Below the pieces are notes generated by a model that did no database searches, was not told the DNA's origin, and saw only the letters and a program-made list of their open reading frames with translations. From assembly GCA_928724745.1 (NCBI GenBank), contig CAKMXJ010000007.1, positions 310,001 through 374,000 on the forward strand: a DNA stretch of 64,000 nt. The letters run 5' to 3'. Shown here in pieces: positions 40,171 through 45,215 of the stretch; positions within the stretch are counted from its first letter, which is position 1, and the number at the start of each line of letters is the position of its first letter. Source of the DNA: Anthracocystis setariae (Eukaryota; Basidiomycota; Ustilaginomycetes; Ustilaginales; Ustilaginaceae). Made by a program: the position numbers and the translations under genes.

Positions 40171-40311
40171 GCTGTTCGGGTAGCGATCAAGGTCGTTGTT
40201 GGTTAGGCATTGCGATGGTGCGATCCTTTAGCACACGCCTGTAATGAGCCGGCGCTGATGACAAGGTTGGGTGTGGACAAGATGTGGACAAACGCTCAAA
40301 GACAAAAGTGT

Positions 40312-40319
40312 TGACGTCA
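40312..40319. promoter_or_regulatory. CRE-type palindrome TGACGTCA
   Basis: A perfect bZIP-class palindrome lies in the divergent interval between the coiled-coil gene and the Hac1/Cib1-type gene. Binding is inferred from sequence only. Confidence 0.4.
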
Positions 40320-40619
40320 GGTTGGTTACTGACCAAGACGTCGCATGCAAGGCCAGCTGCGGCAACCAACAGCCGTAAATACCGGCTTGACGAGACCCAT
40401 TTTTAGGCGCACGATGCAAACACAAGAGGGCGGCACTTTTTGAAAGCGCACAAAAGCATCACCTTGCAGTAGTTGCAGCAGCAGCAGCGCGGATCTATTC
40501 TTTTTAGGGTCTGCAACGATCGACGAGATCTTAATCGGCGATATAGACGTCTCGAGATCCCATTCGCGCGAGATTATAGAGTCGAGCTCGGAATTAAACT
40601 TGAATTTAAGCTCGGCCTT

Positions 40620-40627
40620 CCACGTCA
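40620..40627 (-). promoter_or_regulatory. UPRE-like element (TGACGTGG on the minus strand)
   Basis: The octamer CCACGTCA, the complement of TGACGTGG, is identical to the XBP1-type unfolded protein response element. It lies 484 bases upstream of the bZIP start codon. Autoregulation of HAC1-family genes through such sites is known in several organisms, so this may let the spliced factor activate its own gene. A single octamer can also occur by chance. Confidence 0.45.
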
Positions 40628-41110
40628 ATCCATGGAAAGCGCAGCAGACACAGCCCCTTTGCCGCCTGCAAGCCAGCACGCATGCATGTCAACGTGCCAA
40701 CCCTTGCACTCACAGAGAGAGAGAGAAAGGGTTCCACGTCGACAGCTGCCTTTCTGTCTCTCCACCACCTGCGCTTTCCTCAATCCTCCTGGTCTGCCGT
40801 CTCTCTCCCCTCTCCTGACACAACTCACCTTCCACGTACACATTCCCTTACGCCTCTCCTAACACATACCTGCCCTCGGCTTCAACGCTTAGGGTTGCCA
40901 TCCTCCAAATCCACATTGCAACGCAGCTCATCACCTAACTCTGCACTTGGCACACTCTCTCTCTATCAATCTCCTCCTCTTCACTGAGTGCTGGAGATTA
41001 CTACATATCCCATTCGCCGCTGTCACCCTTCTCTCTAGCTACGACAGTGTTTCATCTCTTCCGCGTCTCGATTGTCCTCGCTCTCGTCGTCGCCACCTGT
41101 TTCATTCACC

Positions 41111-42921
41111 ATGTCGAGCTTTACATCATCTGCCCCTGCCTCCCCACAGCCGTCCTCGACGTCACCTATGGACATTGCATCATCCTCTCGCCTCCCAGAG
41201 CCTTCCATCAAGAAGGAAGCATCTGACGCAGCTCAGACTGACTCGAGCTCGACCAGCAAGAAGCGCACCAGGCTCGACATGGACGAGGACGACGAGGACG
41301 ATGACGACAATCTCCATGACTCGTCATCCACTTCTACACCTTCCAAGCCTGCCACTGGCAGCCGCAGGAAAGCCACTGACGAAGAGCGCAAGGCTCGACT
41401 CGAAGCTCGTCAGGCCCGGAATCGTCTCTCGGCCCAATATTCGCGTGAGCGCAAAAAGGCATATGTAGAGCAGCTCGAAGGCTCGGTCAACGCGCTCAAG
41501 GCAGAGAATGCTCTGCTTTGCCAACAGCGCGACCAGGACCAACTAATCCGCCAGGCTCTCGAGGCCAAGCTCAAGGAAGCTCAGCTGCGTATCGACACTT
41601 TTGAAAACTTGCTCCGCACCGTTCTTTTGCCCCCAACGTCGTCGTCGTCGTCGTCATCGTCGTTGTCATCGTCATCATCATCGTCGTCATCATCATGTTC
41701 CTCCTCCATGATCCCTTTTGTACCTTCCTCTTCATCGGCTTTCGCCGCTTCTCCCACTTCGGCAGTTGTTCCGCAGATTGATGCGGGACTGTCCGCCGAT
41801 CTCACGTCTAGCCTGTTGCAGGACAGTGTCCTGGCTAACAAGGAGGTCTCTTTGCCCGTGACGATTGCAGCGCCGGCATCGACCGCTTCCTCTTCCCTCT
41901 CCCTTGGCACTAGTGGCCAGCAATCTTCGAATGAAGGCGTTCGCCTCCCTGCAGCGGAGGCGACCTGCTCTGATGCACCATCCTCTCACAAGGATGCCGA
42001 GCTCGAGCAGTCCCAGCAGCGGATGTCTTCACACAATTCGATGGTGTTGCTAGCCACCAAGTCGCCAACGGAAGGGACGGAAGCAATGTCGATGCCAACG
42101 GCAGCAGCATCGCCATGCAAGCGTACCTCCCTGCCAACCAGAACGCCATCTTTGCAACACAGCAGTCGTCGACGATCGCGGCCATCTCGCGCACTCTGCT
42201 TGAGCATTCCGTCCAAGTCGCCAAAGCCGGCGTTGCCCGTGAAGCTGAAGCTCTGCTCTCCAAGTTTATCGACCTCGATGGCGCCAAATTCGCCAACGGT
42301 GACGAGACGACTAAGGCTCAAGATCAAGGTGCCGAAGCGACTGCCACCCCGACTCAACCTGTATCTGTGGGCTCGGTCGATCAAGCAGCAACAGCAGGTG
42401 CTGAACGAACAGCAGGCGCCGATGCAAGTCAGCTCGCAAGCCTGAGCGCCACCACCCACGCCACGGTGGGCTTGGGGGAGGAGGGAGAGATGGGCAGCAG
42501 TAGCAGCAGCAACAAGTTTGATTCGATCCACTTGGATGCTAGTATTGCCACCATGACTGACGAAGAACAGGACGAGGATGGTAACAAGCGGTTCTCGCTT
42601 CTCACTTCGGCCTTGCTGCCGAGCGAGAGGAACGTGTGGGAGCTCGCCACCGACGCGATGCTTCAAAACGTTTATTCGAACGACGGTACGATGGCGGAAG
42701 AGCGGGAGCTGGGTGATTCCAGCGTGTCGGGTACGGACTCGACGGATACGAGTGCCAGCTCTTCGCCGTTTGATTTGGTCGATCTCGAGATTGAGATTGA
42801 GGAGCCTCTGCAGTTGGAGATTGGACTGGATCAGATGATGTACAACAAGCAGCAGCAGGAGGTTGGGTCTTGCGTGGAGGAGGATTGGTCGAGTTTGTTC
42901 TCGGCAGGTCTCGTCGCTTGA
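41111..42921 (+). CDS. cib1: Hac1/XBP1/Cib1-type bZIP regulator of the unfolded protein response, made by unconventional splicing
   Basis: The start is the ATG at 41111 (CACCATG). Residues 85-165 are a bZIP domain. The basic region ARQARNRLSAQYSRERKK has Asn104-x7-Arg112, and the NRxxAQxSRxRK pattern fits Hac1/XBP1 rather than Gcn4 or AP-1 factors. A long poly-Ser run (TCG/TCA repeats, 41637-41699) follows. Unspliced, the frame ends at 42445 (444 aa) with an Arg/Ser/Pro-rich tail. Removing 41952-42016 joins codon 281 to a different frame that runs to 42921: 841 + 905 nt, 581 aa. The new C-terminus is acidic (DLVDLEIEIEEPLQLEIGLD), as expected for an activation domain. In Ustilago maydis, Cib1 is the known Hac1 homologue and also binds the developmental regulator Clp1. 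The name here rests on the domain and the intron, not on a search. Confidence 0.88.
41952..42016 (+). other. Unconventional (Ire1-type) 65-nt intron in the bZIP mRNA
   Basis: The 5' cleavage site lies in the 7-nt loop CTG|CAGC (41949-41955), held by a perfect 8-bp stem (41941-41948 with 41956-41963). The 3' site lies in the loop CAG|CAGC (42014-42020) on a shorter stem of about 4 bp. Both loops fit the Ire1 consensus CNG|CAGC. The segment has no GT..AG ends. Its length is 65 nt, which shifts the frame exactly as needed to reach the long acidic C-terminal frame. Neither frame can be read alone to 42921: the downstream frame has a TGA at 41971, inside the removed segment. Confidence 0.88.
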
Positions 42922-43385
42922 TTTGTTGGTTGTTGTTGGTGCCCGGTTGTACTGTACATTTAGTTGAAATGCTAGTTCTGCTCGTTTTCTCTCTCTCTTT
43001 CTTTCTTTCTTTGTTCGGTTTTGGTCTGTGGGTGTGAGGGGGTTCATGTGTTTGGTCTGGGGTGGTAAGTTTTGGAGGGTTTTTGGGGGCGATTGGGAAT
43101 GGTGGGAAGGGAGGGGGGGGGGGTGTTAAGGATTTGCGGAAGTAGTAGTGTAGTTGTGTGGTGTTGGGATTGCGTCGAGGGGAGTATAGTAGTGAGTAGT
43201 GAGTAGTAGTGGGAGTTTGGGGGTGGGGGGAGATGATTGAGAGCGAGACTGTGATATTACGAAGTGAGATTTGGGTATGGCCAAAATATGAATGAAAGAG
43301 AGAGAGAAGGAGCGGTATATAGAGGGAGACGATTAAAAATACAGTGTAGTAGTATACGAGAGAGAGGGGGGGGGTAAAAGGATGG
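42922..43385. other. Convergent 3' region of the bZIP gene and the 609-aa gene
   Basis: It contains GTACTGTAC at 42949-42957, a CTTT-rich stretch near 42990, and a very G-rich part at 43072-43125 with several runs of three to ten G. GAGTAGT repeats follow near 43190-43210. Confidence 0.6.
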
Positions 43386-45215
43386 TTAGAATTGGAGAGG
43401 GTTGTGGTTGAGGGAGGACCAATACCAGGATTCTACTAGAGGCCAGATTTGGGAGTAAGTTGTATCCGTAGAGACGAATGAGGAGGATTCTTCTGCCGTC
43501 GAGGAGGAGGAGGAGGAGGGGGGGAGGTGGTGGGTGGGGGGGATTGAGGAGTCGAGTTCATCGACTAGCGTATGGATGGATTCGAGGAGGGTTTGGGCTT
43601 CACGTTTCAGTTGCTCGATAGCGTTTGCATCGCTATCGGTGTCGAGATCATGTGCACCAGCAGCAGGGGAAGAGTTGCTTGGGAGAGCGAGTGTGCGAGT
43701 GCGCGGCGAGGTCAATGGCGATCGTACTGCGCCAGTCACGATAAATGGAGGTAGCGGGAACCAAGTTTCTTGATTCACCCGCATCAAAGGCGTAGTGGCA
43801 GCCACGGGGTTCGACGGTGTCAAGGTCGACGTCGAACAAGCCGACGATGGTCGCGAAGCGGAAAGCAGTAGAGGCTGCAGTGTAGCTGTCGACGTGCGCC
43901 CCGATGGCGAAACAAGACTCTCAGCAGAGACAGCTCGAGTGGCGTTCAGGATCTCCAACGACTCGTTCTGGGTCGGTCCTTGTGGGTCAATGAAACCGAT
44001 AAAGGGACTACTGAAAGCGTGCTTGTCCTCTGCGTCGGTTATTGAAGCACCCGAGCTTGGCGACAGATCATCGTTGGGCAATTGCAAAGAGAAAGGGTGA
44101 TCGCTCAGCGAGTCATTGGAGTACGTCGAATCCATCGAGTTTCTCGACATGGTAGACGCCGAAGAGCGCATCGACGGCGAGGCGAGACTGCTGCTTCCCG
44201 AGCTGTTGAGCCTGCTAGACACCTGCGGTGAGATCGGCGATTGCTGTGCTGGAAAGCTGTTGATGGATGGAGGAAATTCTCGCCTGTGTGAGGGGGAGGG
44301 TACAATGTCGAACAAAGGCTCATCATCGTCGCGATCTACGAGGCCGCCTAGGCTGCGAACGCGGCTTGACGAGCGTGTATGCTGGGAAGATCGAGGGGGA
44401 AACACAAAGTCGGTTTGAGTGGCGGGAGAGTGGCCTCGGGAGCGGTGCTGCCATGCCGATTCTTGCGTGATGGCTGGTGGTGCCGATAATGGACCTTTGC
44501 GCGCGTCTTTGATGATCTTGAGCTTGGCTGGGACTGGACCGTAAGTACGAGCGGAGCGTGGCTCTTGAATCTGAACTGATGGTGCGGCGGCAGTGCGGTC
44601 GTGGTCGCCGATGGAGATCTGATGGCTGCGTACTTGTGGCGCTTCTGTGACGGTGCCAAGCGGCTGCTTCTCATCGACACAAGCGAGCTGACTAGAAGGC
44701 TTGTATTGTGGAGCTGCGGCACCGGACTTGTTGGCTTGTTCGAAAAAGGCAGCCATGTCGCGGACGGAATGGCGATGTGACTTGTTCGAGGTGGTGGCGG
44801 AGGTGGTGTTGGCCATTAGAACTCTTTGAATGGCGATAGAAGAACCAAGCACGGACGAGATCGATTCGGAACGCGATGAGATACTATCATGGCCACCCAA
44901 ACGACGGCCATGACTCGAGGTGCGTGAGCGATCCGAGCCGAAAGCGAGGTCACTGTATTCGGAAGCGGAACCAATGCTGGACGGAGAGCTAAAAGTGAGG
45001 TCGAAGGAGGAATCGGAATCGGTCTCGTAGATGAGACGATGCTGTAGCTTTGTGAGTGCTTGTGGTGGATGCTGCGTGGCAGCGTGCTTGATCATGTTGG
45101 CATGCTTTGCGACGGAGAAGGAACGCGTGAAGGGAGATGTCAAGGGTAGAGCGAGTTGAGCTGCGTCGATGGGATCGGTGGTGCAGGTGGTAGAGCTGGC
45201 AAAGTTGCGACTCAT
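43386..45215 (-). CDS. Unrecognised, largely disordered Ser-rich protein
   Basis: One exon from the ATG at 45215 encodes 609 residues. I do not recognise it. Most of it is Ser/Thr/Pro-rich with many SP and TP pairs. Order-prone islands include LQHRLIYETDSDSSFDLTFS (about residue 60), HSVRDMAAFFEQANKS (about 150) and TYGPVPAKLKIIKDARKGP (about 225). A C-terminal helix EQLKREAQTLLESIHTLVDE (about 540-560) precedes the end IWPLVESWYWSSLNHNPLQF. The islands could be docking motifs, and the SP/TP sites suggest kinase control, but both are inference. The length of the frame and neighbour-like codon use support a real gene. Confidence 0.7.
   Translation of the reverse strand: MSRNFASSTTCTTDPIDAAQLALPLTSPFTRSFSVAKHANMIKHAATQHPPQALTKLQHRLIYETDSDSSFDLTFSSPSSIGSASEYSDLAFGSDRSRTSSHGRRLGGHDSISSRSESISSVLGSSIAIQRVLMANTTSATTSNKSHRHSVRDMAAFFEQANKSGAAAPQYKPSSQLACVDEKQPLGTVTEAPQVRSHQISIGDHDRTAAAPSVQIQEPRSARTYGPVPAKLKIIKDARKGPLSAPPAITQESAWQHRSRGHSPATQTDFVFPPRSSQHTRSSSRVRSLGGLVDRDDDEPLFDIVPSPSHRREFPPSINSFPAQQSPISPQVSSRLNSSGSSSLASPSMRSSASTMSRNSMDSTYSNDSLSDHPFSLQLPNDDLSPSSGASITDAEDKHAFSSPFIGFIDPQGPTQNESLEILNATRAVSAESLVSPSGRTSTATLQPLLLSASRPSSACSTSTLTPSNPVAATTPLMRVNQETWFPLPPFIVTGAVRSPLTSPRTRTLALPSNSSPAAGAHDLDTDSDANAIEQLKREAQTLLESIHTLVDELDSSIPPTHHLPPSSSSSSTAEESSSFVSTDTTYSQIWPLVESWYWSSLNHNPLQF

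Follow-up and report, generated by a model that had tools for sequence, protein, structure and literature searches.

We propose that nucleotides 41952-42016 of the 64-kb window (the whole stretch of DNA analysed here) are, with high confidence, a 65-nt Ire1-type unconventional intron in a fungal bZIP mRNA, and that the gene most likely encodes the UPR regulator known as Cib1, HAC1 or XBP1. Under ER stress Ire1 would cleave each of the two 7-nt loops flanking the segment on the 3' side of its third base, a 13-bp helix between the exons would keep the two exon ends together after cutting, and the tRNA ligase Trl1 would join them. The resulting frame shift would replace a basic-tailed protein of 444 aa by one of 581 aa whose tail is acidic and probably activating. 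The system is most likely of a known kind, the HAC1/XBP1/cib1 switch. The reading of the segment as an Ire1 intron is supported because the site carries a unique hairpin, codon usage switches frame there, no frame-restoring GT..AG candidate of 40-300 nt has full spliceosomal signals, no slippery site lies at 41960-42439, and the genome encodes both Ire1 and Trl1. Processing by Ire1 in the manner of HAC1, XBP1 and Cib1 had been put forward in a preliminary description of this DNA, and the hairpin, the codon switch and the two enzyme genes all speak for it, the removal itself being a prediction.

Gene structure and predicted protein forms

The gene lies on the forward strand, where a first frame begins with the ATG at 41111-41113 and stays open to the TGA at 42443-42445, a length of 444 codons (Table 1). 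Pfam finds bZIP_1 in the unspliced (U) protein at E 2.8e-09, above the curated cut-off, and bZIP_2 at E 1.5e-06, and a comparison of the bZIP region with PDB sequences returned weak bZIP matches alone (best E 0.0012). The N-x7-R/K pattern of the basic motif is named in a passage of PMC4891664 as a conserved feature of HAC1, bZIP60 and XBP1. A second frame begins to be open at 41974 and ends at 42921 with the stop codon TGA (42919-42921). The predicted intron lies 3' of the bZIP domain, its length is 2 modulo 3, and without it the C-terminus is read in the other frame; 841 + 905 nt remain, or 582 codons including the stop, in which codon 281 straddles the junction and 300 codons follow. This arithmetic agrees with the 444 and 581 aa that the preliminary description had assigned to the unspliced and spliced (S) products, and its further claim of a basic unspliced and an acidic spliced tail is borne out by isoelectric points of 10.97 and 4.05, respectively. 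The exon-2 tail has 49 D+E against 14 K+R, and exon 2 of the S form matches no Pfam family with an E of 1 or below.

Table 1. Features of the bZIP gene and its predicted unconventional intron (positions in the window).
Feature	Positions	Strand	Remarks
Unspliced (U) open reading frame	41111..42445	+	444 aa; bZIP domain; Pfam bZIP_1, bZIP_2
bZIP domain PF00170	41384..41530	+	residues 92-140; N-x7-R basic motif NRLSAQYSR
Exon-1 arm of exon-exon helix	41932..41944	+	pairs with 42019-42031
5' splice hairpin	41941..41963	+	8-bp Watson-Crick stem; loop CTGCAGC 41949-41955; predicted cut between 41951 and 41952
Basic tail of U form	41951..42445	+	pI 10.97; overlaps exon 2 in another frame
Predicted Ire1-type intron	41952..42016	+	65 nt; contains TGA 41971-41973, which closes the exon-2 frame
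3' splice hairpin	42010..42024	+	weak stem; loop CAGCAGC 42014-42020; predicted cut between 42016 and 42017
Exon 2 of spliced (S) form	42017..42921	+	frame from 42019; 300 codons; acidic tail
Exon-2 arm of exon-exon helix	42019..42031	+	pairs with 41932-41944

Other features of the locus were seen in passing. A polyserine tract, a run of TCG/TCA/TCT-type codons at 41639-41697, follows shortly after the bZIP domain, and from this tract arises an aspartate-rich antisense frame (41581-41985, minus strand) that is probably meaningless. Facing exon 2 is an antisense stop-to-stop frame of 379 aa (41986-43125, minus strand), which is probably a by-product of codon composition.

The predicted splice-site hairpins

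Both loops, CTG↓CAGC and CAG↓CAGC (arrows mark the predicted cuts), match CNG↓(C/A)NGN, the motif measured for Ire1 of S. cerevisiae according to a passage of PMC8104961. The positions of the loops, the perfect first stem of 8 bp and the effect of losing 65 nt on the reading frame had all been given correctly in the preliminary description. In the 5' stem eight consecutive Watson-Crick pairs join 41941-41948 to 41956-41963, with pairing probabilities of 0.83-1.0 when a 101-nt window is folded and, in four larger windows (131-601 nt), of 0.97 next to the loop declining to 0.43 at the base. The 3' stem consists of three Watson-Crick pairs (C-G, C-G and U-A) and one G-U (42010-42013 with 42021-42024), its pairing probability is at most 0.26 and falls to 0.02, and the 3' hairpin is missing from the minimum-energy fold; folds that contain both hairpins lie 1.2 kcal/mol above the minimum with 3 bp of the 3' stem and 2.5 kcal/mol above it with all 4 bp. 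Of the two hairpins that had been posited, the 5' one stands as a well-paired structure and the 3' one is weak, and the 3' stem is the single tested feature whose fit to the HAC1/XBP1/Cib1 class is doubtful.

The 5' hairpin is exceptional by several measures of chance. The window contains 437 CNGCNGN cores, each read on both strands to give 874 sites, and a Watson-Crick stem of at least 6 bp is found at just one of these, the one at 41949. The sites at 41949 and 42014 are also the sole pair 15-300 nt apart in which the first stem has at least 5 bp and the second at least 4 (G-U allowed), and no site with an 8-bp stem occurred when 40 sequences of 64 kb were generated from a first-order Markov model. 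There are 13 bZIP matches in the genome and loci were available for 12; the 11 of these other than the gene studied contain 514 sites (257 cores read on each strand), not one of which sits on a stem of at least 5 bp. The local fold is moderately better than that of shuffled sequences (z -2.12), 6 of 200 shuffles being equally good. An Rfam search of 41700-42300 gave nothing above the gathering score and five sub-threshold matches, none of them relevant.

The frame switch and its alternatives

Under a codon-usage model for which 17 further long open frames of the window served as training set, the best frame change point is 42021, and all positions within 2 log units of it lie at 42004-42021. 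The predicted junction (42016/42017) falls inside this range, which widens to 41971-42075 when synonymous usage alone is considered. In the overlap at 42019-42442 the per-codon score is 0.271 for the exon-2 frame versus 0.045 for the unspliced frame, and the acidic exon-2 frame is therefore the better coding frame. The change-point test by itself does not distinguish an intron from a frameshift error, and a one-base error near 42004-42021 would yield the identical change point. It is nevertheless very unlikely that a sequencing or assembly error, or gene decay, has interrupted a single frame, as the only homopolymer of five or more in 41600-42450 is the CCCCC at 41630, the break coincides with the window's only strongly paired CNGCNGN loop, exon 2 runs for 300 codons without a stop and resembles coding sequence in its codon usage, and the two exon ends can base-pair with each other across the break. 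The earlier view that the break is not an error is consistent with the lack of a long homopolymer nearby and the location at a unique hairpin.

A conventional spliceosomal intron connecting the two frames is extremely unlikely. There are 204 GT..AG pairs of 40-300 nt and of length 2 modulo 3 that would restore the frame, a number that is expected because the two open frames overlap over a long stretch, but none of the 204 combines a full donor (GTRNGT), a branch site (CTRAY) and a YAG acceptor, the maximum being 3 of 5 points. The best of the candidates listed start at 42329-42428, distant from the codon change point at 42004-42021, and a spliceosomal intron would leave the unique 5' hairpin without explanation. 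The borders of the predicted Ire1 intron, CAGC..CCAG, carry no spliceosomal signals. The original assertion that no GT..AG intron lies here thus holds for single-intron candidates of 40-300 nt, none of which is fully signalled.

Programmed -1 frameshifting would bring ribosomes into the exon-2 frame without any splicing, and that frame is indeed at -1 and overlaps the first by about 470 nt. We regard this as hardly conceivable, however, in that no X XXY YYZ slippery heptamer occurs in any frame at 41960-42439 and Ire1 motifs placed in hairpin loops are not needed for frameshifting.

Ire1 and Trl1 in the genome

The profile search for the machinery covered the assembly of 21,467,743 bases in 36 contigs, and both enzymes of the proposed Ire1 reaction are encoded there. 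The Ire1 RNase family has one match (contig C8), within a frame of 1411 aa that carries both a Pkinase and a Ribonuc_2-5A domain and aligns to yeast IRE1 (2rio) with E 5.7e-122, including the RNK.HH segment, which we take to be catalytic. Trl1 is a single 985-aa frame (contig C3) in which a tRNA ligase domain is combined with a kinase and a CPD domain, the same architecture that a passage of PMC6592678 gives for Trl1. Of the 168 profile positions, its kinase domain (frame at L005:842-3799, minus strand) matches no more than the first 77, and the second half of the domain is therefore divergent. We also observed that Ire1 carries a strongly basic cluster, KKNKNKRRRRGKRGG, between an apparent membrane segment and the kinase (L004, about 2769-2830); in yeast, a positively charged linker motif is described as docking HAC1 mRNA (PMC6116095, in part).

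A possible exon-exon helix across the predicted intron

The two exon arms listed in Table 1 can form 13 consecutive pairs across the intron, 10 Watson-Crick and three G-U. At the same 65-nt spacing, 13 pairs were found at five of 12,000 random window positions, two of these with at least 10 Watson-Crick pairs. The duplex of the two exon ends has an energy of -25.6 kcal/mol, and the outer nine pairs (41932-41940 to 42023-42031) are present in the minimum-energy fold. The inner four need nucleotides that also make up the base of the 5' hairpin, and 42021-42024 are contested in the same way between the helix and the 3' hairpin; as modelled, the helix could close fully after the loops are cut.

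It is conceivable, though we hold the idea only tentatively, that the exons themselves carry a splicing aid. The helix would be partly formed before cutting and would then zip inward, opening the 5' hairpin at its base along with the weak 3' hairpin and ejecting the intron, so that Trl1 could join ends held in a short loop, and in this lineage such a zipper may offset the weakness of the 3' hairpin. Judged from this one sequence, the helix would resemble the RNA 'zipper' described for XBP1. Among the literature matches listed, no paper has 'RNA zipper' together with HXL1 or cib1.

The unspliced protein

The preliminary description had suggested that the unspliced protein might compete with the spliced one, a suggestion that finds no support in the sequence and that we treat as speculation. 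When exon 2 was shuffled synonymously, 1813 of 5000 shuffles kept the unspliced frame open for at least 142 codons, and the length of the unspliced tail is therefore what chance provides and no evidence of function; these same synonymous-codon shuffles revealed no selection on the tail. Nor is there a clear hydrophobic region of the XBP1u type in the tail, where the highest 19-residue mean hydropathy is 0.57, which sets this gene apart from XBP1. For U. maydis, a passage of PMC6988420 treats a role for Cib1u as a possibility only.

Comparison with known systems

By description, the gene resembles U. maydis cib1 as a bZIP gene with a predicted Ire1-type unconventional intron. A scan of viral contigs for a relative found none. 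Heimel et al. are said to have found, in 2013, that the U. maydis cib1 intron is also 65 nt. The cib1 mRNA is described as a bZIP message that loses an unconventional intron through Ire1 to give cib1s, and its unspliced product, Cib1u, is discussed as well (passages of PMC6988420, PMC6918084 and PMC10688622), with further precedent for U. maydis cib1 in part of PMC4836707. The HXL1 gene of C. neoformans is described in PMC3154848 (in part) as having a 56-nt unconventional intron with CAG at both borders, predicted stem-loops and a C-terminal frame change. It shares with the gene studied here the basidiomycete bZIP setting, the unconventional intron and the change of C-terminal frame; the two differ in intron length (56 versus 65 nt) and, as far as the passages on HXL1 go, in that HXL1 carries, ahead of its bZIP domain, a conventional intron as well, whereas here no stop codon interrupts the first frame between the ATG and the end of that domain.

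The loop motif and the two enzymes are common to this gene and S. cerevisiae HAC1. The yeast intron is given as 252 nt, in contrast to 65 nt here, and as base-paired to the 5' leader in such a way that translation is blocked (PMC3154848, in part). Using an assumed leader of 611 nt upstream (40500-41110), intron-leader pairing here came to -47.6 kcal/mol against a shuffle mean of -42.6, with 16 of 200 shuffles as strong, and such pairing is not convincing. In contrast to metazoan XBP1, the ligase here is of the fungal Trl1 type. This ligase, the Cib1-type gene and the size of the genome suggest that the organism is a smut fungus.

Regulatory sites known from related systems were also sought. 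At 40200-43450 of the forward strand there are no Pumilio sites, the letters of which we take to be TGTANATA or TGTANNTA; Puf4 has been tied to HXL1 splicing (PMC10688622, in part). A pit1/2 UPRE is reported in the U. maydis cib1 promoter in a passage of PMC4836707, and about 370 nt before the ATG here, at 40732-40741, is TTCCACGTCG, a 9/10 match to that U. maydis pit1/2 element. With one mismatch allowed, the UPRE TGCCACGTCG occurs eight times in the window against a shuffle mean of 5.59, and at least eight times in 22 of 100 shuffles, so that such matches are no commoner than chance and the one at 40732 does not speak for autoregulation.

Implications

The analysis corrects the gene model, in that ordinary annotation would give the 444-aa protein or a broken gene and would miss the 581-aa form. 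The combination of a weak 3' hairpin with a strong exon-exon helix also makes this gene a case for testing in fungi the RNA zipper of animal XBP1.
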